Shown: positions 4,441-39,055 of the stretch, in pieces
Layout: every line of letters starts with the position of its first letter
How positions within the stretch are numbered: the first letter of the stretch is position 1
NCBI GenBank assembly: GCA_945787715.1
Contig: CALZJE010000002.1
Span: 76,417-125,109, forward strand
Direction of reading: 5' to 3'
Source of the DNA: an uncultured Ectothiorhodospiraceae bacterium
GTDB taxonomy: Bacteria; Pseudomonadota; Gammaproteobacteria; S012-40
Length of the DNA: 48,693 nucleotides
Program-made: the position numbers and the translations under genes
The notes under the pieces: generated by a model
Databases searched by the model: none
What the model was told of the DNA's origin: nothing
Seen by the model: only the letters and a program-made list of their open reading frames with translations

Positions 4441-5871
4441 ATGGGGTTCAATATGCGATTTTTTATATTTTTAATTTTATTAGTCTTTACGACAAGTCTT
4501 ATTGCTGATGAAATTATAGTTCCTCATGTATTTAAAGCGGATAAACGTGCTATCGCATCAGAAGTAAATGAAAATTTTTCTGTTTTGGCAGAAGCGATCA
4601 ATAGTAATGAAGCTGAAATTGAAATACTCAATATCGAAGTGGTTGAAAATCGAGATAATATCCACGTTCTTGTGGAGCAGCTGAAAAGTAGTGTACAAAG
4701 TGCAGATGGACAAAGTTCTCAAATCATCTCCGTTGCACAAACTGTCCAGAATCATGGTGACAATATTAAGGTCATTGAAGATGAATTTGTTTCTAAAAAA
4801 ATAGAAATTAATTCAAATAAATCCAATATTGACGCTAATAGCACAATAATCGAGTCTAATCATATTAAAGTTTCTCAACAGCAAGCAACAATAGCACTAA
4901 AACAAAATAGAATGGTGGGGGGCTGTGAAGAGGGTTCTTCTATTCGAATTATTAGTACTGATGGAACTGTTGTTTGTGAATTTGATAGTGAAAGCGATGC
5001 AAATGGCGGAGATGTAACTGCTATTACAGTGGGAAACGGATTGCTCGGTGGCGCTACAAGTGGTGATATTAATCTCGCTGTTGATACCAGCATTATTCAA
5101 AAAAAATTGAAAAACGCCACCTGTAGTACTAGAGAGTTGATAACAACTATTATGGAGGATGGCGCTGTTATTTGTTCACCCACCAATGGCGTTAGTGAAA
5201 TTATTGGTGGTACTGGTATTTCTGTTTCAGCTGACGTAAAGAATGTGGTGACTGTTGATATAAAGCCGAGAAGTATTAACAATTCTGCACTAACCACTAA
5301 TTCGGTCGATAGTTCTAAAATTCAAAATAATGCAATTAATAGCAGTAGTCATATTGTCGATGAGCCAGGAATTACAACAATAGCTAACGACTTTGCATGT
5401 GCTCATATCAAAAACTCTAGTGAATATTGCAATGGGATTTCATTAGCTTTAGAACCTGTATTGATAGCGAGTGTAACCGTTGATGCACCAAATGCAGGAC
5501 TTGTTTTGCTCAACTTCTCGGGCAACTATTACGTAAGACAATCAGAAGATCCACCTGATGGTTTTTTATTGGAATTTGAGATTAGCGAGTCAGACACGAT
5601 TCGCGTTTGTGAAACGGTTAGAAAGGATATATTCCCGTATAATCCAATGACCAAATGTAATACTAGTTATAGAGAAATAATTGTAGATGAAAATGATTTT
5701 TCGCTTCGAGAAGCAAGAAACAGTGCTCACTCTCAACTACATGTTATGGTTCCTTCCAAGGGAACTTATACATACTATATTTATGGAAAATTCTATAGTT
5801 ATCCAGAAATTCCGATCGTAGGAGTCAGAGAGCATTCTTTTACTGCTATGTATTTCCCCACATCATATTAA
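4441..5871 (+). CDS. Secreted coiled-coil, tail-fibre-like protein, copy 1
   Basis: The 476-residue product has a Sec signal peptide (to about residue 22, ...TSLIADE) and then VPHVFKADKRAIASEVNENF. That matches a motif I recall at the head of secreted trimeric coiled-coil proteins (A-x-EVN-x-NF). Residues 45-150 have long runs of Asn, Ser and Ile spaced as a coiled coil. A Cys pair brackets CEEGSSIRIISTDGTVVC, followed by the tail-fibre-like signature VGNGLLGGATSGDINLAVD and a C-terminal beta-rich domain (VLIASVTVDAPNAGLVLLNF). Probably a surface or periplasmic trimer, perhaps adhesive; this is inference. About 60% identical by eye to copy 2. Confidence 0.75.
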   Translation: MGFNMRFFIFLILLVFTTSLIADEIIVPHVFKADKRAIASEVNENFSVLAEAINSNEAEIEILNIEVVENRDNIHVLVEQLKSSVQSADGQSSQIISVAQTVQNHGDNIKVIEDEFVSKKIEINSNKSNIDANSTIIESNHIKVSQQQATIALKQNRMVGGCEEGSSIRIISTDGTVVCEFDSESDANGGDVTAITVGNGLLGGATSGDINLAVDTSIIQKKLKNATCSTRELITTIMEDGAVICSPTNGVSEIIGGTGISVSADVKNVVTVDIKPRSINNSALTTNSVDSSKIQNNAINSSSHIVDEPGITTIANDFACAHIKNSSEYCNGISLALEPVLIASVTVDAPNAGLVLLNFSGNYYVRQSEDPPDGFLLEFEISESDTIRVCETVRKDIFPYNPMTKCNTSYREIIVDENDFSLREARNSAHSQLHVMVPSKGTYTYYIYGKFYSYPEIPIVGVREHSFTAMYFPTSY

Positions 5872-6015
5872 ATGACTGTATTGGGCTCAAATACTCGATG
5901 TATATAGACTTAATCAAATCAATTAAGCAAATTCAAATATTGTGTTAATGGGTTGCTAATTAAAAATGTTCATAATCCTCTGCTTACTAGTTAATGAGAT
6001 CTTTGAATCTTTTAT

Positions 6016-6188
6016 TTGCTGACAACGCTGCTAAGACTGTTATTTACACTTGGTTGTCTAGCGGTATGTGGAGGCAGTATTGATTTGGATGAATGTAAAG
6101 CTTCTTTCTTTCTCAAAAACAAGTTTCTAATGCCTTAAAGTTCGTCTGGAACAATCTGGGTTGGAATATTTGTATTCATCAGGGGTAG
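6016..6188 (+). pseudogene. Frameshifted copy of the small lipoprotein
   Basis: From TTG 6016 one frame reads a signal segment and lipobox (LAVC) followed by GGSIDLDEC, aligning with CGASSNAEAC of the intact gene. That frame stops at the TAA of 6136-6138. The frame one base away reads FLSQKQVSNALKFVWNNLGW, aligning with PSQKNICEASEPVWNKMDW, and ends at TAG 6186-6188. By position exactly one base is missing, inside a TTCTTTCTTTC tract around 6100-6113. A sequencing error in this tract is the main alternative. Confidence 0.75.
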
Positions 6189-6193
6189 TTAAT

Positions 6194-7624
6194 ATGGAGT
6201 TGAATATGCGTGTTTTTATGTTTTCCTTGCTACTTATTTTTGCGACAAATATTGTTGCGGATGAAGTAATAGTACCTCACGTGTTTAAAGCAGATAAACG
6301 TGCTGTTGCAGCAGAAGTTAATGAAAATTTCAATATATTGGCTGGAGGAGCGAATAATAACCGAACTACATTAGAAATGTTAAATATCGACGTGAATAAA
6401 AATCGTGATAATCTTAGTGATCTTGCAGAGCAGCTGAATAATGACTTACAAGCAACCAGTGCTCAAAGTGCTCAGATCACAACAGTCACAGAAAGTACAC
6501 AGAATCATAGTGAAAGTATTAAAGGCATTGAGAATGCACTAGATTTAAGAAAAATAGAGATTGATTCTAACAAAACAAAAATTGATACAAATAGTATTAA
6601 AATAGAATCCAATAGAATTAGTATTTCGGAACAACAAACTGCAACAGTGCTAAAGCAAAATAGAGTAGTAGGTGTTTGCGAAGAAGGTTCCTCTATTAGG
6701 GTTATCAATGTAGATGGAACTGTCGTTTGCGAGAATGATGACAAAGGCATTGAGGCTAAAGGAGATATTACTAGTGTCACTGCGGGAAATGGATTGATAG
6801 GTGGCGGTACAAATGGCGACGTTAATTTAGCTGTGGATACCAACATCATTCAAGAAAAATTGAAAAATGCGACTTGCCAAGAAAATGAATTCATATCAAA
6901 TATTGCGGGAGATGGCGCAGTAACATGCGCTTCCACTCACAGAGTGAGCGAAGTAATTGGTGGAGATGGCATTTCAATTTCATCAGGAGCAAATAGCTCT
7001 GTGACGATTGATATAAAACCGGGAAGTATTAATAATGCGGCATTAGCTAATAATTCTGTTGAAGCTTTTAATATCCGATATGAGGCAATAAACAGTACTG
7101 ATCATATTGTCGATGAGCCAGGTGTTGCAACAAAAGTTAATGACTTTGTATGTGAACATTCATCATATAGTCAATGTGAAGGAATTGAATTGTCAGAGCA
7201 AGCAGTGCTAATAGCGAGTGTAACTGTAAGTGCACCAAATGCCGGTTTTGTTTTTCTTAGTTTCTCTGGTAATTATTATATTCAGATACCATTTGATATT
7301 GAATTTGTTGATCCATTTGATTTGATATTTGAAATTACTGAGCCAGAACTGAATGGTATTTGTGAAACGTATGATCCTGATTCAGGACTGACAAAATGTA
7401 ATAATAGTTATAGAGAGATATCCATTGGTGATGAAGTTAATATTAACAGATATGTAAAGGGGAATGTCCAATCTCAGCTTCAGCTGATAGTACCTTCAAG
7501 CGGAAACTTCACCTATAAGGTGTATGGGAAAGTTTCTTCTCATTCTGAGGGTAGCCCAGTTTATCCTTATATGGAAATCAGGGAACACTCACTGACTGCC
7601 ATTTATTTCCCTACCGAATATTAA
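6194..7624 (+). CDS. Secreted coiled-coil, tail-fibre-like protein, copy 2
   Basis: Same architecture and same length (476 residues) as the preceding copy: signal peptide, VPHVFKADKRAVAAEVNENF, Asn/Ser-rich coiled coil, Cys-bracketed CEEGSSIRVINVDGTVVC, AGNGLIGGGTNGDVNLAVD and a beta-rich C-terminus ending in IYFPTEY. ATG 6194 is chosen because it aligns with the start of copy 1 and has AGGGGT seven bases upstream; the frame is open back to TTG 6161. The C-terminal domain differs most between the copies, in loops near residues 380-410, as expected if ligand-facing. Confidence 0.75.
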   Translation: MELNMRVFMFSLLLIFATNIVADEVIVPHVFKADKRAVAAEVNENFNILAGGANNNRTTLEMLNIDVNKNRDNLSDLAEQLNNDLQATSAQSAQITTVTESTQNHSESIKGIENALDLRKIEIDSNKTKIDTNSIKIESNRISISEQQTATVLKQNRVVGVCEEGSSIRVINVDGTVVCENDDKGIEAKGDITSVTAGNGLIGGGTNGDVNLAVDTNIIQEKLKNATCQENEFISNIAGDGAVTCASTHRVSEVIGGDGISISSGANSSVTIDIKPGSINNAALANNSVEAFNIRYEAINSTDHIVDEPGVATKVNDFVCEHSSYSQCEGIELSEQAVLIASVTVSAPNAGFVFLSFSGNYYIQIPFDIEFVDPFDLIFEITEPELNGICETYDPDSGLTKCNNSYREISIGDEVNINRYVKGNVQSQLQLIVPSSGNFTYKVYGKVSSHSEGSPVYPYMEIREHSLTAIYFPTEY

Positions 7625-17617: not shown

Positions 17618-17626
17618 ATGAGAATA

Positions 17627-18082
17627 ATGAACGACACAAAAAGAAGAGATAAAACATATAATCCTGGTATGGAAATGAGAGAAAAAGCAATGTCAATTGC
17701 TATGAAACGCAAGGAAGAATACCTAGGAGCACGTGTACCTAAAGCGTTGAAAGAGCGAGTGATTATTAAAGCTGATGAAATGGGCATTCCGGTATCTTTA
17801 CTAATTCGTCGTGTTTTAGAAGAAGCATTTTCAGAGGGTGCGGATAAAAGTTCTATTGTATCTACTGCCGCTACATCGATGCCTATTGTTGATACCCAAA
17901 AACAGGAGAAGTTTAGCGATATTATTGGCTGGAAGAATATGGAAGTAAATCAGGATCGCAGCTGTGAGCGTTGCCGGGAACCATTACCCAAAGGAACTGT
18001 TGCCGAGCTAGGATTCAACTCTTCGGATACAGGATATGTGATTGTCTGTCATCAATGCAAAACACAATTAACCAATACCTAA
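17627..18082 (+). CDS. Ribbon-helix-helix protein with C-terminal zinc ribbon
   Basis: About 151 residues. Residues around 28-65 (EYLGARVPKALKERVIIKADEMGIPVSLLIRRVLEEAF; split here as a strand followed by two helices) fit the Arc/MetJ ribbon-helix-helix DNA-binding fold. A linker follows, and the C-terminus has CERC and CHQC about 30 residues apart, a likely zinc ribbon. I infer a metal- or redox-sensitive regulator. ATG 17627 suits GGAG upstream; ATG 17618 is also in frame. Its end overlaps the start of the barrel gene by 28 bases, suggesting control of the downstream envelope cluster. Confidence 0.75.
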   Translation: MNDTKRRDKTYNPGMEMREKAMSIAMKRKEEYLGARVPKALKERVIIKADEMGIPVSLLIRRVLEEAFSEGADKSSIVSTAATSMPIVDTQKQEKFSDIIGWKNMEVNQDRSCERCREPLPKGTVAELGFNSSDTGYVIVCHQCKTQLTNT

Positions 18083-19545
18083 TACTACCAATATTTCTAG
18101 TTTTTATGTTGCTCGCAGCAAATTTAGTGGCTGCTGAGATAACAGATGACATTGATATAGCATTACCTGATGATCTCGACATATTGCTTGATGAGAAAGA
18201 ACCGTCGAAGCATGTGTGGGGAGGGTATTTAAAAAATGAAACAGCTTATCGCTTCGATGAGCCACGTAGTTTTACAAAAATTCGTAATGTTGCATCTTTC
18301 AACTGGCAATATCTGCTCTCTTCACGAATAAGGTTTTATACTTCTGGTTGGGCTTATTACGACCATGTATATGATCTATTTAACTACGATACGATCGCGG
18401 CACGCAGTGTGCGTGATGAAGATGAACCGCTGGTTTTCCTTGAACAATTAAAAAAAGAAAAGGACGACAAAAGAGCTGAAATCAAAGAGCTATATGTTGA
18501 TATGTTCTTTGATAATCTAGATATTCGATTAGGCAAACAATATGTTGTTTGGGGTGTTCTTGAAGGAATGCGTATTGTCGATGAAATTAATCCCATGGAT
18601 TTTCATGAACTCATCACGCCGGAATTACTGGATTATCGAATTGCTCTGTGGACTTTTAGAGCCGATTATTATGCAGGTAATACCACTTATGAGCTGATCT
18701 GGATTCCTGATCTCGTGTTTCACCGTTCGGCGCCTCGGGGATCTGAATGGGAATTGTTTCAGGTGTTGGATGGTACAACAAAACCGAAAAGTTTTGAGCC
18801 TGAGTATTCTGAGATTGGCTTTAAAGTGACGCGAGATATGCTCGATGCCGAAATAGCATTCAGCTATTTTTATACTTGGGATGATTATCCAACGACATTT
18901 CGAGTGATATCACAAGAGGATGTAACCAGTGCAACTCCTTCTGAAGAATTACCCATATTCCCAACTTATACCAGGATGCAAATTTTTGGAATGACTTTTA
19001 CCAAAGAAATTTCGGGGGATATTTTAAAAGCGGAATTTGCTTTTGTAAAAGATAAATATTTTGCCATTGTCGATAAGTATGATGATGATGGTTTTTTAGT
19101 CTCTGATGGTGATGTTCAGCGTGATCATGTTCGTTGGGGGCTGGGTTATGACTTCAGTATATTGGGAGCAGATATCAGTCCAGCAATTGGTCAAGCCATC
19201 ATATTAGATTATCGAACTTACCTGTTGACCACTGAATTTGATACCACATTCAATGTATTTCTTCGAAAACCGCTACCTAAATATTCTGCCGTTTTTTCGC
19301 TTTTATATATACATCTATTGAAATTTAAAGAGACTTATATAAAACCACGGGTGCATTTTGATTTAACAGATCACTTTAGGATTACGCTGGGCGGTGATTT
19401 TTTTGTCGGTCAAAGAACAAAATTCGGTCGAAGCGCAGATGCATCAGCGGAAGGTGGATTGGTAACGCCCCAGCAAAGAGCAAGGTTTTTGGGTAATTTT
19501 AATGAAAACAAGCGTTTTATTTTAGAGTTTAAGTATACATTTTGA
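18055..19545 (+). CDS. Outer-membrane beta-barrel protein, DUF1302-like
   Basis: 496 residues from ATG 18055, chosen because it begins a good signal peptide (about residues 1-23, LVFMLLAANLVAAE). The sequence has the DUF1302-like core GKQYVVWGVLEGMRIVDEIN followed by PMDFHELITPELLDYRI, alternating strands throughout and a terminal YTF. Barrels of this kind often sit beside RND/MMPL transporters, as here. Substrate unknown. The start lies inside the RHH regulator gene. It is probably the outer-membrane partner of the RND protein that follows 140 bases later. Confidence 0.7.
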   Translation: MQNTINQYLILPIFLVFMLLAANLVAAEITDDIDIALPDDLDILLDEKEPSKHVWGGYLKNETAYRFDEPRSFTKIRNVASFNWQYLLSSRIRFYTSGWAYYDHVYDLFNYDTIAARSVRDEDEPLVFLEQLKKEKDDKRAEIKELYVDMFFDNLDIRLGKQYVVWGVLEGMRIVDEINPMDFHELITPELLDYRIALWTFRADYYAGNTTYELIWIPDLVFHRSAPRGSEWELFQVLDGTTKPKSFEPEYSEIGFKVTRDMLDAEIAFSYFYTWDDYPTTFRVISQEDVTSATPSEELPIFPTYTRMQIFGMTFTKEISGDILKAEFAFVKDKYFAIVDKYDDDGFLVSDGDVQRDHVRWGLGYDFSILGADISPAIGQAIILDYRTYLLTTEFDTTFNVFLRKPLPKYSAVFSLLYIHLLKFKETYIKPRVHFDLTDHFRITLGGDFFVGQRTKFGRSADASAEGGLVTPQQRARFLGNFNENKRFILEFKYTF

Positions 19546-19685
19546 GTTTTTATGCGAAATATATTTTGCGCAGAGTAGTTGTGTATGTGGGGAATATGCT
19601 GACGTTTGGTTTAATGATGTAGATAAATCAAATTTGAAATTGAAATCCGGTTACATATGTGGGTAAAAAAACGAGAAGGGCAAAA

Positions 19686-22442
19686 ATGTTAAGTAAAATT
19701 TATTCGTTGGGTTACACCTATCCCAAAGCGATCATAGCGACGGTTATTGTATTAACTGTTTTCTTTGCAATGCAATTGGATGGTTTGCGATGGGAAACAG
19801 ATGCCAGAGTTTATCTTCCTAAAGGTCATGAAGCCATACTTTATGATGAAAAAGTTGATGATATTTTTGGGGTAAAAGACACTTTAATCGTTAGTATTGT
19901 TAATGAAGAAGAAAGTATCTACAACATAGAAACATTAGCACGAATTGCTCGAATTACGAATAAGATCACCGCTCTTCCCGGAATTGAAGCAACACGAGAT
20001 GTGGATATTGCATCTATTGCGACCTCAACCGTGTTTGAAGCAGACGATACCAATATGGGCTCCCGACTCATTATGGATAAAGTTCCTCAAACGCCTGAGG
20101 AAATTGATGCGATTAAAAAGACGATTGAACATCACAAAGATATACTCGTTGGTAATATTGTTTCCGCTGATGGTAGCGCGGCGATGATTCGTGTGAAAAT
20201 TAAAGAAGGTCAGGATAATCGCTATATGACTTATTTCCAAGTCAAAGCCATTATCGATGCAGAAAAAGGTGAAAAAGTCAGTTGGGGGCCATGGGGTGGT
20301 GGCGAAAAAACTGATGCCGATGCAGATGCTGAAGGCGAATGGGAAGGTAACGCATGGTCCGATGGTTCCAAGTGGAAAGATGGAAAACGTATTGATGAGC
20401 AGTCTTCTAATGCTGTGCAACCCGAAACTGAAAAAGAATCGGAAAAGGGTGCTCTTAAGGATAATTCAATTGTTGCTGATGCCTCTACAAATATTCCATC
20501 AGATAATTTCATGGCGGATACATTTGAAACTGCAACATCTGATGCGCCAACAGATGCAAATTTTCAAGAGACTTTTGGTGATTGGGATGTTGCGGGATTT
20601 GATGCGGGTGTTGAAGAGTCTTCTACCATCGTTGGAACTGCTAAAATTAGGGAAACTGGAATACCCGAAGCTGATCCCGACAAACCGGTAAAAGATGTTT
20701 TTTATCTGTCGGGTAGACCAGTGATTGAAGTTTCAGCAGGTCTCTATTCGATGGAAGATATGAAAATCATGATGCCATTGCTTATTGCAGTAATGGGTAT
20801 TGTCTTGTTAGTGATCTTTCGAACCTGGCGTGGAACTTTGTTACCTTTGATGGTAATGACAACTTCGATTATCTGGACTTTTGGTTTAATGGTTCTGTTA
20901 GGTTATCCACTTTATACCATTTCAACCATGCTACCGATTATTCTCGTTGCTGTGGGAATTGGTGATGGCGTGCATTTGATGAGTGCTTATTATGATAAAG
21001 TGCTGAATAACCCTCATGAATCAGCTAAAAATATAGTGAAAGATGCAACTCATAAATTAGGGCCGCCATTGATAATGACATCGGTGACTACTGCAATCGG
21101 TTTTCTGGCTTTAACTTTTGCAGAGATGCCTCCCTTCAGAGTTTTTGGAGTTTTCGCTTTGATTGGTATTCTTTTGTCTTGGGTTATAACAATTACTTTG
21201 TTGCCTGCTGTATTGTCAATGCTTCAACCTAAGGTGGGTAATTATCTGGCAAAACGTCGTGCTATGCGTGTTTATGATGAAAAAAACAAGCTTGCGCTAT
21301 TTTTAACAACAACAGGGCGTTGGATTGAGGATCACAAGAAGCAAGCTGTGGCTGTGCTTGGTATTCTGCTTGTGATTGCTCTGGCAGGCACTTCAAGGCT
21401 CTATATTGACTCGAGTTGGATGAGTGATTTTAAAGAAGACACTGATGTTGCAATCGCCAATTCAAAAGTCAATGAGAAATTTGCCGGTTCGATTTTTCTT
21501 AATATCGTCATTGAAGCCAATGAGAAGAATGCATTTAAAAACCCGGTACTGCTAAATAAAATGGAAGATCTACAAGAGTATGTTGAGACCCTACCATATG
21601 TCGGGGATACGCTGAGCTTAGTGGATTATATTAAAAGTATGAATAAAGCGCTAAATAATGGCGATGAGAGTTTCAATCAAATTCCGGAACTGCAAAAGCA
21701 GATCGCTGAATATCTATTTTTATTCTCAGTTTCCGGCCGCCCACAACAGTTGGATGAAGTTATTGACTATGATTATAAAACAGGACTTATTACAACATTT
21801 ATAAAAACCGATCATACTAAGGAACTTAAAGTGGTGATTGATGGAGTGAATAATTATGTAGCAGAGCATTTCCAGGGCTTGGATGTTGATGTGAACCTCG
21901 CTGGGTCTGGTAATAATTCCTATGTTTGGGCTGATTTACTTATCGGAAGTCAAACGGATGCTTTAGTGCTGTCTAAAGTCGCCATATTAATTGTTGCAGG
22001 TTTGGTTTTTGCCTCGTTGATAGCAGGTATTTATGTCGTCATTCCTGTGACACTATCTACCTTACTTGTTGCTGGTTTTGCAGGTATTTTTTCTATTCCA
22101 CTTGATGTTTCTACAGCACTCGCTGCAGGTATCGCCATTGGTGTAGGTGTGGATTATGCTGTGCATTTTCTTTTCCGTTACAATTCTGAGTTGAAAGAAA
22201 GTGGAAGTCATGAGCAGGCTACTGCGAACACCTTGCGTACAACAGGGCATACGATTGTGATCAATGCAATTGTTGTGTCTATTGGGTTTGCTGTGTTGCT
22301 GTTCTCCTCTTTTCCACCTCATGTTAAACTGGGGGCTTTTGTCACAGCCTATATGATAGTGAGTTGCTTGGTAGCTATTTGGGTGTTGCCATCGTTGCTT
22401 TCCTATTTCCGACCTACATTTGGTAATACCAATAAAACATGA
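19686..22442 (+). CDS. RND superfamily (MMPL-type) transporter with large insert
   Basis: The 918-residue protein has the duplicated layout of RND/MMPL exporters: one N-terminal helix, a big periplasmic loop, a bundle of five or so helices (from about residue 357), then a second helix, loop and bundle (from about residue 550). The motif GIGDGVHLMSAYYD and its twin GVGVDYAVHFLFRY are the family's conserved GD/DY pair. ATG 19686 has AGAAGGG upstream; an in-frame GTG at 19659 is weaker. Residues about 195-325 form an acidic, low-complexity insert with several Trp (WGPWGGGEK, EGEWEGNAWSDGSKWK). Its stop overlaps the next ATG. Confidence 0.88.
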   Translation: MLSKIYSLGYTYPKAIIATVIVLTVFFAMQLDGLRWETDARVYLPKGHEAILYDEKVDDIFGVKDTLIVSIVNEEESIYNIETLARIARITNKITALPGIEATRDVDIASIATSTVFEADDTNMGSRLIMDKVPQTPEEIDAIKKTIEHHKDILVGNIVSADGSAAMIRVKIKEGQDNRYMTYFQVKAIIDAEKGEKVSWGPWGGGEKTDADADAEGEWEGNAWSDGSKWKDGKRIDEQSSNAVQPETEKESEKGALKDNSIVADASTNIPSDNFMADTFETATSDAPTDANFQETFGDWDVAGFDAGVEESSTIVGTAKIRETGIPEADPDKPVKDVFYLSGRPVIEVSAGLYSMEDMKIMMPLLIAVMGIVLLVIFRTWRGTLLPLMVMTTSIIWTFGLMVLLGYPLYTISTMLPIILVAVGIGDGVHLMSAYYDKVLNNPHESAKNIVKDATHKLGPPLIMTSVTTAIGFLALTFAEMPPFRVFGVFALIGILLSWVITITLLPAVLSMLQPKVGNYLAKRRAMRVYDEKNKLALFLTTTGRWIEDHKKQAVAVLGILLVIALAGTSRLYIDSSWMSDFKEDTDVAIANSKVNEKFAGSIFLNIVIEANEKNAFKNPVLLNKMEDLQEYVETLPYVGDTLSLVDYIKSMNKALNNGDESFNQIPELQKQIAEYLFLFSVSGRPQQLDEVIDYDYKTGLITTFIKTDHTKELKVVIDGVNNYVAEHFQGLDVDVNLAGSGNNSYVWADLLIGSQTDALVLSKVAILIVAGLVFASLIAGIYVVIPVTLSTLLVAGFAGIFSIPLDVSTALAAGIAIGVGVDYAVHFLFRYNSELKESGSHEQATANTLRTTGHTIVINAIVVSIGFAVLLFSSFPPHVKLGAFVTAYMIVSCLVAIWVLPSLLSYFRPTFGNTNKT

Positions 22443-23356
22443 AATATGTAGGAATAACACTTTTCCTCTTTTCCCTATTATTTGCTGGCTTGGTTCATGG
22501 CAAAACGAAGGAAACTGGGTGGGTGTTTTCCCCAATTGTTGGTGTTAATAAACTCGATTTAAAAGTGTTTTACGAGACGATGTATAACGCGCCTTTTGTT
22601 GGAACAGTACGCATTAATACGGATTTGCCCGAAGATGTTGAAGGCGATTCTGCATATCCAACTGAAAAATTCTATTTCGAAAATAAATTGTCCGAACGAT
22701 CTGTAGACATGGAAGGTGGGTTAGAAGCACGACGTTATTTTGGAAAGCAAACCGATTTTTTTATCGGCATAGGTGCTTGGGAGACCAGCTCTGAAGCTAA
22801 AGATGTAGTCGTTACATTTCCTTTGCAAGGACAACATAACAATCGGGCAAAATATTCTCGAAGAGGAAAGCTTTCTTATACTCAATATTATTTAGGTATT
22901 CAGCACTATTTGAATAGTCGGAAAAAAAACTTTACGACTTACTTTAATTTCAGTATACGAGAGTTGTTTGATATTGACTATGAAGAGACTAACGTTTTCG
23001 ATTTTATCAGTGGTGAGCCAAAAGGCTTTAAACGAATCTTTATTTTTAAGTCTCAAGCAACTGGATTGTTGATGTTACAGCTAGGTGTAGGTGCTGAATA
23101 TCGATTTGCAGACCGGCTTTCTTTCTCATTAGAAGGTGCATATGCATTTCATATAAAAGATGGGGCATTGAAAGGTGTTTCAGTAAACAATGATTTCAAT
23201 GATGGTGATGGAATAACAACAGAGCCATTGGTGATTCGCCCTATTAATCCCTTACTTGAGGCAGGAGCGTTAAGTGAAGATGGTGTGAATTATCAGAAAG
23301 TGAAGCTTCGATTCGATGGCTGGCATATTGTTACCAAATTTAGTATTGAATTTTAA
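22439..23356 (+). CDS. Outer-membrane barrel protein coupled to the RND gene
   Basis: This 305-residue protein has a signal peptide (MKYVGITLFLFSLLFAGLVHG), many amphipathic strands and a terminal EF with C-terminal Phe (TKFSIEF). An OmpW/OmpA-like small barrel is likely, but I do not recognise the family. Its ATG overlaps the RND stop (ATGA), so it should be made at a fixed ratio with the transporter. It is about 70 bases ahead of the TPR-barrel gene. Confidence 0.6.
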   Translation: MKYVGITLFLFSLLFAGLVHGKTKETGWVFSPIVGVNKLDLKVFYETMYNAPFVGTVRINTDLPEDVEGDSAYPTEKFYFENKLSERSVDMEGGLEARRYFGKQTDFFIGIGAWETSSEAKDVVVTFPLQGQHNNRAKYSRRGKLSYTQYYLGIQHYLNSRKKNFTTYFNFSIRELFDIDYEETNVFDFISGEPKGFKRIFIFKSQATGLLMLQLGVGAEYRFADRLSFSLEGAYAFHIKDGALKGVSVNNDFNDGDGITTEPLVIRPINPLLEAGALSEDGVNYQKVKLRFDGWHIVTKFSIEF

Positions 23357-23423: not shown

Positions 23424-26315
23424 ATGAAAATTATATCGAGATTCGATAGAAAAATATGTGTGTGTAACGGGCTAAAGGAATCCCGATATATCTATTCGCC
23501 TTTAAATTTTGTCCTTAAAATCCTCCTAGGTAAAGCTTTTCTTATTGCCTTTCTTTTTGTACTGTGTCAACCGATATTCGCAGCTGAAGATACTCCGACT
23601 ATAAAACGTTTGCTTAGTAGTAGCTTAGATCTGCTGGTAAAACAGCAATCACACGCTGCAAACATATTATTGAATCAAATATTATTGCTGGACCCAGAGC
23701 ATGGGGAAGCCTACTTTCGTTTAGGGCAATCCCATATGCAGCAGCGAAAGGTTAAAGAAGCAGTTGAATATATCAAAAAAAGCACACAGATTGACCCAGA
23801 CAATGTTATTTATGGGCTTTATCTAGCAAAAATTTACGATAGACAAGGTGATCTTGTAAAAGCGCAAGCAGAGTATCAGCGGCTCATTGATTCGGGCTCA
23901 ACTTCAGATAGGATGAGTGAAGTTGAAATGCTTTATTCGCTTACAACGGGCCGTATCTTAGCGCAGAAAAACGAGATGAATGCTGCTTTGCTTGTGTTTA
24001 ATGGATTATTACTTGATCACCCTGATAATCCTCAGGTGCTGTTTAATATCAGTAATGCTTATATGGTGCTTAATCGTTTTGAAGAGGCAGAAGCAATTTA
24101 CACAAAGCTTTATGAGCTGAATAGCCGGAATGAAACAGTTAACTTTAATCTAGCAAAAATATATTCAAAATCTAATCGACCTGTACTTGCTATGCAGCAT
24201 CTAAAAAACATCATGGATCTTAATAAAGGCGATGATCGACAAAAGTTGGCAACCGTTGAATATAATATTATTAGAGGAAGGGAGCTTCTTAAAATCAATG
24301 ATTGGGATGGAGCCTTGGCAGCATACAAAATTGCGGTAGAGCTTGATCCGACTCGAACTGAGGCCTTCTTTAATATTTCTATGGCTCATTTGCAAATGGG
24401 GAATACGCAGTTAGCAGAGCGGGGCTTTTTAAACGTTCTTCGCATTAATCCAGATGATTTTTTAGCGCGTTTGAATTTATCGCAAATGTATTTCAACCTG
24501 GATAGAATTGATGAGTCAAAAGAGCAGCTCCTTTACACGATTGAAAATGATAAAACAGGGCAGTTTTCCCATCAAGCAAAAATTCGATTGAACGCTATTC
24601 ATACACTATTAGCAGACAAAGCATTAGAAAGCGGGAATATTGAAAAAAGTCTGAAGGAATATTCTAAAGCGTTAGACTTTTTTTCTGCAAATGTAAAAGC
24701 TAGTTTTAACCGAGGAATGATCTACATTCAAAAAGGCGATTTTCCTGCTGCGCAATTGGAATTTGAATCTGTTATTAGGCATGAGCCTGAAAATGTACAA
24801 GCAAGGATTAACTTAGCCAATATATATGAGCAGTTGAATATGTATGCTAAAGCCACTGAGCAATATGAGGCTGTGCTTGAAACTGATAAAGATAGTCAGG
24901 AAGGAAAATATGCGGCAACACGATGGCAAAATACTAAAGCGAGAGGTTTGTGGGAGAAAGGCCAGCTTGATGAGTCAGAGACAATGTTTGAAAAGATTGT
25001 TGCTGAAGAACCTGGGAATTATGAAGCTTATACCTATCTCGGTATTATTCAATCGAGTAAGGGGAATTTGAAAGATGCGGCTAAATCCTATCAAAGTGTA
25101 CTGGATTTAAAGCCAACAAATTACGCAATAAAAATATTATTGGGAAAAGTTTACGAACAACTAGGGCTAGATTCTCTCGCTGCGAATGAGTATCGAAGTA
25201 TTATATTTGCTGGTGGCAGTGTGCGACAAATTCCTGAAGCTGAGCTACGGCTTGCTGAAGTTGAAGCACGTTTAAGTGGCTTTTCAAATACGTTAAATTA
25301 TCAATTCGCTTATGATAGCAATCTTAATCTCAATGATAATTTTCCTGTGGAAGAAGTGAGATCTGATCTCGCGCTAAGTTTTATTTATCGAATAAAAACA
25401 ACAGACAGATTAAGTTTTCGTTTTAACTGGAGTCCCACTTACTCAGCATATCATTTAAATCAAACAGATTATTTACGATCAAATTTACAAACTAACATTT
25501 CTTACGGTACTCCAGATGACAGCTGGTCAGCAACTGTGATTAGTCAGCAACAGGATAACCTTGTAAATGACGAGAAACTGAGTCAAGTCTCAAGTCTCAA
25601 TCTAGGTCGTAGCAAAAAAATGTTTTTGAGTCCATTTTATCAATTCTACACAGATGAAGTAGAGGGAGAAAAAGTGGCAACTTCAGGGTCTGCAGTATTC
25701 GGCTTGCGTCATATCTCATCGTTTAGCGCCACACCCATTGAATCAATAACAGGCTCTCTTACGCTCTCAATGTTTCAGAATCTTAAATGGGGTGTAGGAA
25801 CTAGTCTTAGCTATAAATTATCAGTCTATCGAAGTATGAAAGAGTCAATTGCTGTAGAAAAGGCAAATGTTAAAGTTGAACGTAATACTGTCACCGGATT
25901 GGAAACTGAAATTGCAGATGAAATTACAACATATAATTCTAATGATTATGAATTTAATAGCCACACCCTTGCTATGAGTTTAAGAAAAGTGTTGGCTCCT
26001 GGAGTAGTAGGATCTATTGCACTCAACGCGGCTTTGACAACTTATATTAATGCAGATACGGGGGCTTTTACTCGGGATGGTAAACGCACCAGGCGTGTAA
26101 ACTTTACAGCCGGTAGTGGCGTGAACCTCAGCTATTTTTTCTTTAAAGATTTGAGTATTTTCATGTCTGCAAACTACCAGCGAAATTTTTCCAGTTTACC
26201 GGTAGGCTTAAGTAGTGGGCTGAGTGGAGATGATGCGATCGCTTCTTTCCAAAGCACATCTCTAGGGAACTATAGTCGATATAGTGTGGAGTCGGGATTT
26301 ACGATGAACTTCTGA
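23424..26315 (+). CDS. TPR protein with C-terminal outer-membrane barrel
   Basis: 963 residues. A long N-terminal region ends in a hydrophobic signal segment (about residues 36-54, LIAFLFVLCQPIFAAED). Residues about 60-600 hold many tetratricopeptide repeats (for example HGEAYFRLGQSHMQQRKVKEA). From about residue 620 the chain is a strand-rich barrel ending in SGFTMNF. TPR-plus-barrel proteins include PgaA-type polysaccharide ports and Slam lipoprotein exporters; which, if either, applies is unclear. The start may lie downstream of 23424. It is the last gene of the cluster, followed by a terminator. Confidence 0.78.
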   Translation: MKIISRFDRKICVCNGLKESRYIYSPLNFVLKILLGKAFLIAFLFVLCQPIFAAEDTPTIKRLLSSSLDLLVKQQSHAANILLNQILLLDPEHGEAYFRLGQSHMQQRKVKEAVEYIKKSTQIDPDNVIYGLYLAKIYDRQGDLVKAQAEYQRLIDSGSTSDRMSEVEMLYSLTTGRILAQKNEMNAALLVFNGLLLDHPDNPQVLFNISNAYMVLNRFEEAEAIYTKLYELNSRNETVNFNLAKIYSKSNRPVLAMQHLKNIMDLNKGDDRQKLATVEYNIIRGRELLKINDWDGALAAYKIAVELDPTRTEAFFNISMAHLQMGNTQLAERGFLNVLRINPDDFLARLNLSQMYFNLDRIDESKEQLLYTIENDKTGQFSHQAKIRLNAIHTLLADKALESGNIEKSLKEYSKALDFFSANVKASFNRGMIYIQKGDFPAAQLEFESVIRHEPENVQARINLANIYEQLNMYAKATEQYEAVLETDKDSQEGKYAATRWQNTKARGLWEKGQLDESETMFEKIVAEEPGNYEAYTYLGIIQSSKGNLKDAAKSYQSVLDLKPTNYAIKILLGKVYEQLGLDSLAANEYRSIIFAGGSVRQIPEAELRLAEVEARLSGFSNTLNYQFAYDSNLNLNDNFPVEEVRSDLALSFIYRIKTTDRLSFRFNWSPTYSAYHLNQTDYLRSNLQTNISYGTPDDSWSATVISQQQDNLVNDEKLSQVSSLNLGRSKKMFLSPFYQFYTDEVEGEKVATSGSAVFGLRHISSFSATPIESITGSLTLSMFQNLKWGVGTSLSYKLSVYRSMKESIAVEKANVKVERNTVTGLETEIADEITTYNSNDYEFNSHTLAMSLRKVLAPGVVGSIALNAALTTYINADTGAFTRDGKRTRRVNFTAGSGVNLSYFFFKDLSIFMSANYQRNFSSLPVGLSSGLSGDDAIASFQSTSLGNYSRYSVESGFTMNF

Positions 26316-26485: not shown

Positions 26486-27247
26486 TTAGTCTTGTATAGA
26501 TTTAAACGCTGAAATAGCCCAGTATAATGTGCCAACTGCAAACAATAGCGTTACCCCGAAGCCAATTGAAAATGCATGGAAATCTGGAGTTGTAGAGAGA
26601 GCTGCACGAACTGCACTTGTTGCATATTCTATCGGGTTAAAACTCCCAATCGCGTGAATCCAATTAGGCATAAATTGCTCTGGAACCATTGCAGATGAGA
26701 AAAACATGAGCGGCAATGTCATTAAGTTACCCATGATTACCAGTGGCTCTTCACGCTGTAGTTTAATGGCCAGGCCATTAGAAAGTGCGGCAAATGCGAT
26801 GCCTAGCAGCAAGATTACGAACATAGCCATAAAGATATAAACTGGATTGAAATTGGTATTTGCTCCCATTAACCAAGCAGCGACAAGTACGATAAACGCT
26901 TGTATCACTGCTTGAACAGCAGAATGCAGCACTCGACTTAAGACGATTGCAGTTCTTGAAGCAGGCGAGACCAGCATCTTATCAACTGTGCCCGCACTGA
27001 TTTCACGCAATAGACTCACTCCCGCCCAGGAGGAACCAAAGAGCACTGTCATTATTAAAACACCAGGTACGAAATAGTCTATGTAGGTGTCAGCTGGAAA
27101 TCCCGGAAGAGTGGCAAAATTATTAAATAGTGCTCCAAAAATAAACAACCACAGAAGGGGTTGGATCAACGAGAAAAGCGACCATAGCGGCATGCGCATG
27201 GAGATTTTGACATACTTATTAAAAAGGTACCACGTATCAGCTAGCAT
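26486..27247 (-). CDS. ABC-2 type exporter permease
   Basis: This 253-residue membrane protein has about six transmembrane helices and the ABC-2 (DrrB/NodJ-like) pattern: FVPGVLIMTVLFGSSWAGVSL, REISAGTVDKMLVSPASR, and a final segment LMTLPLMFFSSAMVPEQFMP with IHAIGSFNPIEYA. It works with the ATPase encoded 78 bases upstream on the same strand. Substrate unknown; relatives export drugs, polysaccharides or lipids. CAGGG precedes the ATG. Confidence 0.92.
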   Translation of the reverse strand: MLADTWYLFNKYVKISMRMPLWSLFSLIQPLLWLFIFGALFNNFATLPGFPADTYIDYFVPGVLIMTVLFGSSWAGVSLLREISAGTVDKMLVSPASRTAIVLSRVLHSAVQAVIQAFIVLVAAWLMGANTNFNPVYIFMAMFVILLLGIAFAALSNGLAIKLQREEPLVIMGNLMTLPLMFFSSAMVPEQFMPNWIHAIGSFNPIEYATSAVRAALSTTPDFHAFSIGFGVTLLFAVGTLYWAISAFKSIQD

Positions 27248-27325: not shown

Positions 27326-28753
27326 TTAATTATTTTTTGGCCAGGATGTTTCACTGTCCTGCTTTTTTTTCTTAGCAGATTGTGAATCATCTTTGTCTGA
27401 ATGCCATGCGGCAGATTCCTCGGCAGACCACTGTTTGTTTTGGTTCCACTGTGCTGCTTCTTCCTGGCTCCATTCTTTATTTTTGTGCCAATCTTCAGAT
27501 GCTTCTTTTGTTAGTTCTTTATCATCACTGGGGTTATCAATTCCGCTAGCTTCTTTGGTATCTGTTTTAGCTTCATTCTTTTGCTCAGCATGCCATGCAG
27601 CAGATTCCTCTGCAGTCCACTGCTTGTTGTCATTCCATTCAGCAGCCTCTTCTTTGCTCCAGTTTTTGTTCTTATGCCACTCTTCGGCTTCTTCAGTGGT
27701 CCAGACTTTTGCGTCATCTTCTGATTCAGCATTAGCTTGTTGCCATTTTTTGGCCCACATACCGCCGCCGCCTTTACCAGCCCATTTTTCCCACCATTTT
27801 TCTTCACCTTCTTCTGTGGCATCGATGCTACTGCCTGTGTATTTTATAAATACATCATCGAGAGTGGGCCGTTGATAAGATACGTTGATTACGTCTGCTT
27901 TGATTTCGTTACAGTTTTCAATTAAACGAGGGATGGAAGTTGCTCCATTAGAGACGTATAAATGGAGCTTGTCTTTTTCCCACATAGTATCCATGACAAA
28001 ATCATTAGAACGCATGGCATTTACAATATCATTTTTGTTTTGCGGATCTTGAAATTGTAAGGAAACAACATCACCACTGATGTCATCTTTCAGTGCATCA
28101 GGCTTGTCAATGACCTTAATATGCCCTTTGTCTATAATGGCAACGCGGTTTGAGAGTTTGTCTGCTTCTTCTAAATAATGGGTTGTAAGTAGTATTGTTA
28201 AACCGAGCTCATCATTTAGTTTACGAATGTATTTCCATAAACTCTGACGACTTTGCGTATCTAGTCCGAGTGTTGGTTCGTCGAGAAAAAGAATTTTAGG
28301 GCGGTGAATGAGAGCGGTTGCGATATCAAGTTTACGGCGCATACCACCCGAGTAACTTGATACTAAATTATCGAGTACATCTGCTATTTCAAAGTACTGA
28401 CCGAGTTCTTCAATACGTGATTTGATTTCCGGTTTTTTCATTCTGTAGAGATGGCCTTGTAATTCAAGGTTTTCTCTACCGGTAAGAAAATAATCTACAC
28501 CTGTCTCTTGCGCGACATAACCAATAGATTGTCGGACTTTTTCTGGCTCTCGGTCAATATCATATCCGGCGACGGTTACTTCGCCATCATCGAATCCACT
28601 GAGTGTTGTTAGTATTTTAATTGTTGAGCTCTTGCCAGCACCATTGGGTCCGAGGAGTGCAAGTATTTCACGTTCATTTATTTGAAGTGATAACTGGTCT
28701 ACCGCTTTGGTACCATTTGTATAAATTTTGTTTAATCCATTAATGGTTATCAT
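27326..28753 (-). CDS. ABC exporter ATPase with tryptophan-repeat tail
   Basis: 475 residues. Residues 1-230 are a full ABC ATPase: Walker A GPNGAGKSSTIK, signature SYSGGMRRKLDIA, Walker B ILFLDEPTLGLD and an H-loop (LLTTHYLEE). Residues about 230-308 resemble the C-terminal domain of DrrA-type ATPases (QRPTLDDVFIKYTG). The remaining 165 residues are unlike the family: acidic/basic, rich in Trp, with 14-residue units of the form W(N/H)xNKxW(S/T)xEEAAx in two blocks. It pairs with the permease encoded downstream. The tail should face the cytoplasm. Confidence 0.9.
   Translation of the reverse strand: MITINGLNKIYTNGTKAVDQLSLQINEREILALLGPNGAGKSSTIKILTTLSGFDDGEVTVAGYDIDREPEKVRQSIGYVAQETGVDYFLTGRENLELQGHLYRMKKPEIKSRIEELGQYFEIADVLDNLVSSYSGGMRRKLDIATALIHRPKILFLDEPTLGLDTQSRQSLWKYIRKLNDELGLTILLTTHYLEEADKLSNRVAIIDKGHIKVIDKPDALKDDISGDVVSLQFQDPQNKNDIVNAMRSNDFVMDTMWEKDKLHLYVSNGATSIPRLIENCNEIKADVINVSYQRPTLDDVFIKYTGSSIDATEEGEEKWWEKWAGKGGGGMWAKKWQQANAESEDDAKVWTTEEAEEWHKNKNWSKEEAAEWNDNKQWTAEESAAWHAEQKNEAKTDTKEASGIDNPSDDKELTKEASEDWHKNKEWSQEEAAQWNQNKQWSAEESAAWHSDKDDSQSAKKKKQDSETSWPKNN
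27399..27707 (-). repeat. Duplicated Trp-rich coding repeat
   Basis: Two blocks of about 105-120 bases (27399-27505 and 27588-27707) are clearly similar at the DNA level and encode WHKNKxWSxEEAAxWN followed by xNKQWxAEESAAWH. Each block contains two 14-residue units with Trp at intervals of 6 and 8. Many differences are synonymous, which argues for selection on the peptide. Confidence 0.85.
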
Positions 28754-29114: not shown

Positions 29115-30350
29115 ATGCTTGTTTCGCGGGGATGGAAAAGATCGTCATGGGGTGCAGTTAGATTTGCTACCTTGTGCGCTATTTTGCTAGCTGTTCCACT
29201 TTCTCTTTTCAGTTATCGCATTGGTTTTGCCGATGGTTGGCTACCAGATACCTCTGTGGTTGATCCGACTACAGGCCAAACCTTGGATTCGACAAAAGCG
29301 CCAAACGTTATTGAAAATAACAAGGCATCCCAAGATGGTTTGAGAATTGGCGGTATCGCAAATACTCGTCACAATCTTACTATGTCGTATTTGACCAATG
29401 AGCGTTCGGCGATCATGGATCGTTTTCGAAATAATTACTATGAAGTGTGTGTGTACTGCCATACACCCCATGGAGCGAATTCTACAGCAGCCGCTCCACT
29501 GTGGAATCGTACCGTAGCGAAACGAAATTATGTTCTTTATAACCAAGATCAATCAACAAGCTCTACGACCTATTACCAAGGGACTGGTAGCGGTTTAAAA
29601 TATACTCAGCCAGGTCCAAACTCTTTAACATGCTTATCCTGTCATGATGGCGCAACTGCTATAGACTCAATTATCAATATGCCTACGCAACTGACTGCAA
29701 CCAATATGCGAGCAGGTTATAGTGCAGCACAGGAGTCAACGGTAAATAATGATTTTTTGGATGCGTGGAGTGGTAATTTACTAGGAATGCCTTCGCCTGG
29801 TGACCCAAACTCGACAGGTGATGTCACTAGTCATGCTGGATTCAATACGCAAGAATCCGGAAGTTTATGCATTACTTGTCATAATCCAAACTCTCTTCCA
29901 CCATTTGATGCACCGGATTTTGAAGTGCTGTCAATTGGCGATCAATTCAACGCCGGGGTAACTAATAACGCAAGAGCAAATTATCTTGCCGATGATCATC
30001 CTATCGGTGTTACATATCCAACATCTTTTGGGTCAGATGTGGATTATAGAGAACCTGATGTTTCCGCCGCTAAAATCGCATTTTTTGATGATAATAGTAA
30101 TGGCCGTATCGATCCAAATGAAGTTCGCTTATATGATACGGGTGATGGTTACGAAGTAGAATGCGGATCGTGTCATGACCCACACGGAATTAAGGTGGCT
30201 GGAGATGATAATAATGAATTAATACCAAGCTTTTTGCGTGTTGGCGATTTTGATAATCGTGTATCTCGTGCTGCAGGCTTAGGTTCTGATCGCTCACAAG
30301 TTAGCGCCAACCAAGGTAGCAAGCTTTGCCTAACATGCCATGTTAAATGA
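29115..30350 (+). CDS. Five-haem c-type cytochrome, secreted
   Basis: 411 residues with an N-terminal signal or anchor helix (about residues 17-36). Five CxxCH haem sites are visible: CVYCH (about 112), CLSCH (173), CITCH (252), CGSCH (350) and CLTCH (405, four residues from the end). Two are followed by motifs common in doubled-CxxCH cytochromes (CHTPHGA, CHDPHGI). A calcium-type loop DDNSNGRIDPNE lies near residue 320. It should carry electrons in the periplasm or at the cell surface. It stands alone with its own promoter; partners unknown. Confidence 0.88.
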   Translation: MLVSRGWKRSSWGAVRFATLCAILLAVPLSLFSYRIGFADGWLPDTSVVDPTTGQTLDSTKAPNVIENNKASQDGLRIGGIANTRHNLTMSYLTNERSAIMDRFRNNYYEVCVYCHTPHGANSTAAAPLWNRTVAKRNYVLYNQDQSTSSTTYYQGTGSGLKYTQPGPNSLTCLSCHDGATAIDSIINMPTQLTATNMRAGYSAAQESTVNNDFLDAWSGNLLGMPSPGDPNSTGDVTSHAGFNTQESGSLCITCHNPNSLPPFDAPDFEVLSIGDQFNAGVTNNARANYLADDHPIGVTYPTSFGSDVDYREPDVSAAKIAFFDDNSNGRIDPNEVRLYDTGDGYEVECGSCHDPHGIKVAGDDNNELIPSFLRVGDFDNRVSRAAGLGSDRSQVSANQGSKLCLTCHVK

Positions 30351-38137: not shown

Positions 38138-39055
38138 TTGTCCGGACATCACCATCACCATCACCATCACAATCATCATGCTCCGTCCTCTGCAAAGGTT
38201 TTATATATTGCTTTAGCGTTGACTTTTGGATTTGCTATCGTTGAGTTTATCGGTGGGTGGATTGCTAATTCGCTAGCATTGATGGGAGACTCCGGGCACA
38301 TGGTAACTGATGCTGGAGCATTATTGATTGCTGCTATTGCTAGTTGGTTAAGTAAAAAACCGCCGACTTTAACCCATTCGTATGGATTATTACGCATAGA
38401 AGTTGTCGCTGCATTAGTGAATGGTTTGTTTATGCTGGTTATCGTCTTTGCTTTGGTCTCACTATCTATTGAGCGATTTCAAAATCCCGAAAGTGTGGAT
38501 GGAGATAGTGTGATGATAATTGCAGCAATAGGATTACTTATAAATATTGTTGTTGCTTTTGTATTGAGTCGCGGTGAAGAGAATATCAACACAAAAGCAG
38601 CGTTATTACATGTGATGGCTGATTTATTGGGATCCATTGCGGCACTGGCAACAGGAATAATAATCTATTTTACTAATTGGGTTATTGTCGATCCGATTTT
38701 AACTTTGTGTATTTGCTTACTTATATTGTTTTCAACTTTTCACCTATTGAAAGAAGTTTTGCAAATCATTATGGAGGCAGTTCCATCTCATATTAGTTTA
38801 AATGAGGTTGGAATAAAAATAGCGAGCATAAAAAATATAGTTTCTGTTCATGATCTTCATATTTGGACATTGTCATCTGGTAAAGTTGCTCTGTCTGCAC
38901 ATGTTGTTGTAAAAGATTTAGGCCATTGGCAGAATGCGTTTGACGAGTGTAGTTTAATGTTGGATGAATCATTCCAAATTGAACATGTAACATTACAGCC
39001 AGAATTAATAGAAGCCAAGATTCTGCGCCGCCAGAATGAAAAGAGTGGCACGTAG
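38138..39055 (+). CDS. Cation diffusion facilitator, His-rich N-terminus
   Basis: 305 residues with six transmembrane helices. Both metal-site motifs of zinc-exporting CDF proteins are present: GDSGHMVTDAGAL in helix 2 and HVMADLLGSIAAL in helix 5. A cytoplasmic C-terminal domain (residues about 215-295) contains VHDLHIWTLSSGK. The N-terminus has eight consecutive His then NHH directly after MSG. It probably exports zinc or cobalt from the cytoplasm. The start is TTG 38138 with TAGGAG upstream. Confidence 0.92.
   Translation: MSGHHHHHHHHNHHAPSSAKVLYIALALTFGFAIVEFIGGWIANSLALMGDSGHMVTDAGALLIAAIASWLSKKPPTLTHSYGLLRIEVVAALVNGLFMLVIVFALVSLSIERFQNPESVDGDSVMIIAAIGLLINIVVAFVLSRGEENINTKAALLHVMADLLGSIAALATGIIIYFTNWVIVDPILTLCICLLILFSTFHLLKEVLQIIMEAVPSHISLNEVGIKIASIKNIVSVHDLHIWTLSSGKVALSAHVVVKDLGHWQNAFDECSLMLDESFQIEHVTLQPELIEAKILRRQNEKSGT

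Follow-up and report, generated by a model that had tools for sequence, protein, structure and literature searches.

In Mycobacterium tuberculosis, the export of PDIM requires both DrrABC and MmpL7, and deletion of the C-terminal domain of DrrA abolishes this export, for which the authors proposed substrate binding by that domain (PMC11539658). In the Wzm-Wzt O-antigen exporters, likewise, the cargo is bound by an extension at the C-terminus of the ATPase (PMC11539658). An open question about the MmpL/RND lipid exporters is how a hydrophobic cargo is handed over from the cytoplasm to the periplasm and then beyond it to the outer membrane. The stretch of DNA analyzed here (48,693 nucleotides from an uncultured Ectothiorhodospiraceae bacterium, hereafter the window) encodes exporter parts that are, by sequence, of known kinds; the Trp-sticker tail of its ABC ATPase, the insert of its RND pump, their pairing, and the grammar they share were not found in the literature and protein libraries searched.

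The ATPase gene is a single unbroken open reading frame for 475 residues on the minus strand (27326-28753), identified as a DrrA-type ABC ATPase by TIGR01188 (DrrA; 331.8 bits, above the 312.45 cutoff), by ABC_tran (E 1.1e-30), and by its invariant motifs. The TIGR01188 match spans residues 13-307, and the ATPase is complete. The DrrA1-3_C model gave 26.5 bits, slightly under its cutoff of 27.4. Walker A (GPNGAGK), YSGG, LDEP, and His192 are invariant across 26 orthologues, LDDVF stands where DrrA-type ATPases have an LDEVFL-like motif, and the nearest PDB structures are those of ABCA phospholipid exporters. DrrA-type proteins usually, though not necessarily, end where the model ends; this one continues in the same frame for about 165 residues that belong to no family. 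An earlier note on this DNA had described exactly such a complete ATPase with an in-frame tail, and the frameshift near 27841 that would have separated the two is absent. It is followed on that strand by a gene (26486-27247) for a DrrB-type ABC-2 permease of 253 residues (ABC2_membrane PF01061, E 2.6e-30), which scored 122 bits against the drrB model TIGR01247 and thus fell below the cutoff of 223 for that family; it adjoins the ATPase gene in the clusters read.

The tail (residues 309-475 plus the stop codon; 27326-27829, minus strand) stands out by its composition and its low predicted-structure confidence, and is present in all orthologues read. Tryptophan accounts for 17 of its 167 residues as compared with 1.0% in the other proteins of the window (binomial p 2e-12). 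It contains 14-residue units, W(H/N)xNKxW(S/T)xEE(A/S)A, whose Trp residues recur at distances of 6 and 8, and these lie in two blocks that form a 110-nt direct repeat with 77% DNA identity: block 1 in the WHKNKNWSKEEAAEWNDNKQWTAEESAAW region (27585-27694, minus strand) and block 2 in the WHKNKEWSQEEAAQWNQNKQWSAEESAAW region (27396-27505, minus strand). The duplicated arrangement and the unit were thus as previously noted. Block 1 is present also in G001, a genome of the same genus, in which block 2 was not seen, so that block 2 arose by duplication in the window's genome or was lost in G001. Over 34 codons the two blocks differ with a pS of 0.85 and a pN of 0.115 (pN/pS 0.14), in keeping with the earlier reading of their synonymous differences as a sign of a selected peptide. 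Between the window and G001, pN/pS is 0.39 for the tail and 0.20 for the ATPase part, and every one of the protein's 17 aligned Trp columns is kept, although the aligned parts of the tail agree at only half of their positions. By these substitution patterns, the tail is under selection. The corresponding W6-W8-W6 pattern in DNA occurs twice on the contig, once in each block, and nearly all other matches in the genome are simple repeats of the TGGTTC type. The tail alone had no match in Pfam, NCBIfam, or PDB sequences, and the impression that no ABC subfamily with such a tail is known held for the libraries searched, which describe none.

AlphaFold2 (26 sequences) gave the tail a pLDDT of 24-48 and the ATPase C-terminal domain 80-95, from an alignment that was shallow and left parts of the nucleotide-binding domain at low confidence too. 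The tail is probably disordered according to this model, and a Trp-zippered helical array, which the earlier note had suggested, is unsupported by it. Single Trp motifs may become local helices or hairpins upon binding.

ATPase orthologues were present in 12 of 55 relatives, every one with a tail. We read 43 distinct gammaproteobacterial tails and those of two Nitrospirota genomes (L053 being in the set of 44 distinct tails) and found no orthologue without a tail among them. Directly behind the ATPase, all tails read carry WWxxWAG, which in the Gammaproteobacteria is WWxxWAGK followed by WxxxW. In the window this anchor is WWEKWAGKGGGGMWAKKW (residues 320-337; 27743-27796, minus strand), defined by its invariant residues and by anchor model A1; Trp320, Trp321, Trp324, Ala325, Gly326, Lys327, Trp333, and Trp337 are invariant across 26 sequences, and the consensus WWxxWAGKGGGxWxKxW is high in Trp and Lys. 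Past the anchor there follow 60-300 hydrophilic, fast-evolving residues that drift in sequence and length (whole tails range from 77 to 319 residues) at constant composition: about 10% Trp, a median of 2% for F, Y, L, I, V, M, and C together, and otherwise mostly Q, N, D, E, K, S, T, A, G, and P, so that Trp is practically the sole hydrophobic residue. The 14-residue unit is specific to the window's genus (two blocks in the window, one in G001), and other repeats are found elsewhere, such as AQAWTKEEMEGWW in family f22 and WQGNEWVDxxGxPK in L039 and L074. The L117/L136 tail (G092:C41) comprises 319 residues with 33 Trp in alternating WTxEETxxW and WSPEEMxxW units. In the sequences read, what is conserved is the anchor together with Trp composition and spacing, rather than the 14-residue unit.

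The gene cluster of the ATPase also encodes an RND pump with a matching Trp-rich segment, which lies outside the coordinates of the earlier note and had been missed there. The pump (19659-22442, plus strand, 927 residues) is an MMPL/RND exporter (MMPL PF03176, E 1.3e-38) whose nearest PDB folds are MmpL4/5/3, NPC1, Patched, and HpnN. The segment (20286-20681, plus strand), placed by AlphaFold2 and by comparison of orthologues, is inserted in the first periplasmic domain just before TM2. The AlphaFold2 model gave it (residues 200-331) a pLDDT of 22-36 with a core of about 85, and the insert is accordingly predicted to be disordered. A hypervariable, hydrophilic, Trp-rich insert occupies the same site in all RND orthologues read and is absent from the RND paralogues of the same genomes. 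The largest expansion seen was in L199 (G003:C131, 4604-7885), an RND protein of 1094 residues with about eleven WxGNxWVxxDGxxK-like insert repeats.

The ABC and RND proteins are unrelated, and the tail is cytoplasmic and the insert periplasmic; they nevertheless have Trp motifs in common, including WxGNxW, W[ST]xE[EQ]xxxW, and DWxKW. The pattern W.GN.W was counted 20 times in ABC tails and 17 times in RND inserts (0.17 and 0.14 in shuffled sequences), W[ST].E[EQ]...W 35 and 3 times (0.09 and 0.04), and [DE]W.[KRQ]W 20 and 13 times (0.65 and 0.14), counts that are descriptive, as the patterns were written after the sequences had been seen and tandem copies and relatedness inflate them. Both kinds of segment avoid W-x-W (0 in ABC tails against 29 expected; 1 in RND inserts against 15 expected), favor Trp at +5 and +6, tend to have Trp preceded by D and followed by Q or P, and carry a net negative charge (about -0.09 per residue for tails and -0.11 for inserts). 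Evenness of Trp placement was not significant for the ABC tails (matched by 64 of 300 shuffles) and weak for the RND inserts (18 of 300). The two Nitrospirota genomes show the motifs exchanged: their RND inserts read EEWSAEEMEQWWKDKGGKPW, near the gammaproteobacterial ABC tail VWSPEEMEAWWKKQGGQPQW of L038; in their ABC tails the reading is WxGNxWVNxDG, as in the gammaproteobacterial RND inserts of L027 and G003. The ABC and RND proteins of one genome showed no tendency toward the same motif (all p > 0.17), nor was tail length correlated with insert length. The unpaired motifs argue against recent copying between tail and insert within a genome, and we rejected such copying as their source. A search of the same genomes for a third protein of this kind showed repeated clusters of the motifs in the ABC and RND genes only, with other hits at about the control level.

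The two segments also co-occur almost perfectly. Of 369 Gammaproteobacteria, 24 have the ABC tail; the RND pump was found in 23 genomes, each of them one of these 24 (hypergeometric p 1e-35), and the weakest model matches were far from the thresholds (3e-21 or better for ABC, 4e-270 or better for RND). The DrrA/B-type ABC pair and the MmpL-type RND gene are clustered in most genomes. In seven genomes they lie on separate contigs, some of them short; for G213 and G313, the roughly 10 kb read to the left and to the right of the ABC gene is free of any such RND gene, which indicates an association that is more than linkage. In the window's own family the tail was present in 11 of 13 genomes and the RND pump in 12 of 13. 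G003 was considered as a case of the RND pump without the ABC protein and set aside, for its contig stops just past the permease, at the expected place of the ATPase gene. A phylum-wide sample of 398 genomes, the class make-up of which is not stated, showed the trait in no genome but that of the window, and its distribution is thus limited to certain lineages. The two Nitrospirota genomes (L052 and L053, from a DNA scan) carry both proteins, which suggests an old system or lateral transfer.

The conserved order of the cluster is a CopG-like gene, DUF1302, MMPL/RND, barrel, and TPR genes, and then the ABC pair on the opposite strand. In the window, the first of these (17618-18082, plus strand) encodes a small protein with zinc-ribbon-like cysteines and a weak CopG_antitoxin match below the cutoff. 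It is followed by a DUF1302 protein, probably of the outer membrane (17971-19545, plus strand; PF06980, E 1.7e-12), and, beyond the RND gene, by a putative outer-membrane beta-barrel of 305 residues (22439-23356, plus strand; a weak OMP_b-brl match, E 0.0057, below the cutoff). The TPR protein (23424-26315, plus strand, 963 residues, many TPR matches) is weakly similar to PrsT, BcsC, and PgaA, all under the cutoffs, and has a putative outer-membrane barrel at its C-terminus, proposed from the C-terminal sequence. A CxxCH c-type cytochrome gene (29115-30350, plus strand; Paired_CXXCH_1, E 1.3e-10) neighbors the ATPase gene. The cytochrome adjoins the ABC pair in the window's family and is absent beside it in L028, L029, and L033, where the pair lies next to a tsaD-like gene instead; it is probably outside the core system. 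No biosynthetic gene was recognized in the cluster. Elsewhere in the window, 38138-39055 encodes a probable cation-efflux protein whose His-rich N-terminus (HHHHHHHHNHH) derives from a CATCAC tandem repeat at 38147-38179, and 4441-7624 holds a tandem pair of genes for related secreted proteins (476 and 487 residues) with similar N-termini, an apparent duplication.

Two disordered segments, by prediction, are thus conserved in kind, co-occur almost without exception, and share Trp motifs and spacing. As the best explanation, held tentatively and at a little under even confidence, we propose that the paired, matching Trp-sticker segments catch a common cargo at either face of the inner membrane in a DrrAB plus MmpL-like exporter. 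The ATPase and the DrrB-type permease would move an amphiphilic or lipid-like cargo over the inner membrane, and the MmpL-like RND pump, with the outer-membrane barrel and TPR-barrel proteins, would take it onward, the two pumps working, by analogy, in series. The conserved WWxxWAGK anchor would keep the cytoplasmic tail close to the ATPase, tail and insert would offer many weak Trp contacts on flexible hydrophilic chains, and each segment would capture or enrich the common cargo where it enters the respective pump. As the motif vocabulary is the same at the two faces of the membrane, the simplest reading is that a single ligand is met twice and that this ligand is the cargo. MmpL, NPC1, Patched, HpnN, and ABCA-type proteins handle lipids, sterols, or other amphiphiles; because the ATPase is nearest to ABCA exporters and the RND pump to MmpL, NPC1, and HpnN, we infer a lipid or amphiphile as the cargo. 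That the Trp motifs amount to a shared code, by which disordered segments of two unrelated pumps recognize one cargo successively in a substrate relay, is a more specific proposal that we regard as doubtful, although the exchange of ABC and RND motifs between Gammaproteobacteria and Nitrospirota points toward it. That the tail binds something at the cytoplasmic face, as had been supposed, is plausible. Against the cargo-catching explanation stand the lack of motif sharing and of correlated lengths within single genomes and the lack of a recognized biosynthetic gene in the cluster; a protein partner or the membrane surface would be an equally possible target of the Trp stickers.

Of the other explanations, docking survives best and is unlikely rather than remote. 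Here the Trp motifs would be peptides in the style of GW/Argonaute hooks that fit pockets of partner proteins and recruit or cluster the pump, the cytoplasmic and periplasmic partners being different proteins or paralogues. Multivalent, disordered chains of conserved composition are typical of such hooks, and the motifs found here exceed the expectation from composition and have defined spacing; however, the same vocabulary in two compartments needs two partners that share one pocket, and no partner family was identified. We consider it rather improbable that the segments are membrane-surface anchors, with Trp and Lys at the headgroups, that hold the ATPase and shape the RND entrance and have no cargo specificity. 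Trp favors the membrane interface, the WWxxWAGKGGGxWxKxW stretch is rich in both residues, and the RND insert adjoins TM2, but the net negative charge of tails and inserts disfavors anionic bacterial membranes and the 33 Trp of the L117 tail are more than an anchor requires. A sticker-and-spacer composition, low hydrophobicity apart from Trp, and lengths from 77 to 319 residues would suit a long tail part that mainly associates with itself, its Trp stickers clustering the pumps or making condensates that raise the local pump density; we give this little credence, as Trp in the ABC tails is no more even than in shuffled sequences and generic stickiness has no need of specific motifs. Neutral repeat expansion or an annotation artefact is already largely excluded and very improbable: lengths and repeats do vary by genus, and slippage or duplication can expand repeats, but pN/pS is 0.14-0.39, every aligned Trp is kept, the anchor is invariant in 26 orthologues, and the tail is in every orthologue and co-occurs with the RND pump and its insert. 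The observations that would have told against the earlier note (tail-less orthologues, neutral evolution, or a frameshift near 27841) were looked for and none was found.

The proposal of cargo capture by paired segments bears on the hand-over of cargo between pumps, since the system has a sequence feature that is common and specific to both of them and a grammar that can be mutated Trp by Trp. The WWxxWAGK anchor plus the RND insert is a marker for finding the system in Gammaproteobacteria and Nitrospirota, and it lets comparative genomics tie the system to a cargo. Disordered chains of Trp stickers would be a new means by which transporters collect amphiphiles, should the segments prove to bind cargo. 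Trp motifs common to both sides of the membrane suggest, as a matter of sequence, an undescribed mode of cargo handling; a disordered substrate relay, if true, is a mechanism that the sources searched describe for neither ABC nor RND exporters. Nor did the literature searched, whose coverage left out most subscription journals, describe a tail or insert of this kind.

Several known systems resemble parts of this one. GW/WG Argonaute hooks of the GW182 type are disordered, have repeated Trp motifs, and keep their composition while their sequence drifts. The window-type motifs are W-Q, W-P, WxGNxW, and WSxEExxxW in place of GW/WG, their hosts are bacterial exporters, and, unlike GW182-type hooks, they have no known Argonaute or Trp-pocket partner. 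The tryptophan zipper hairpin trpzip1 is SWTWEGNKWTWK (PMC2427033), and the G001 RND insert contains WEGNKW twice, which is the exact trpzip1 turn with its flanking Trp pair. The resemblance is local only: a folded hairpin has two cross-strand Trp pairs, whereas the segments have one pair per motif, avoid the W-x-W that is present in trpzip strands, and are unfolded in AlphaFold2. The L074 tail had a weak phmmer match (E 5e-4) to the choline-binding repeats of PDB 4cnl, which are likewise Trp-rich and bind ligands through aromatic residues. As the match is confined to a single lineage and to low-complexity sequence, it may reflect chance or convergence, and we kept choline binding as no more than a lead: an invented consensus peptide matched 4cnl at 1.5e-5 as against 5e-4 for the real tail, and the Pfam choline-binding repeats matched none of L074, L039, L036, L051, and L052. 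The extension of Wzt is a folded carbohydrate-binding domain, whereas the tail in the window is predicted to be a disordered, Trp-studded chain with no detectable similarity to it. DrrABC plus MmpL7 is alike in its DrrA-type ATPase with a C-terminal domain, its DrrB-type permease, and its MmpL/RND pump. Mycobacterial DrrA ends at residue 331, and neither a Trp-rich tail nor an RND insert is described for that system; the window system, for its part, has a single permease gene and adds the DUF1302, barrel, and TPR proteins.
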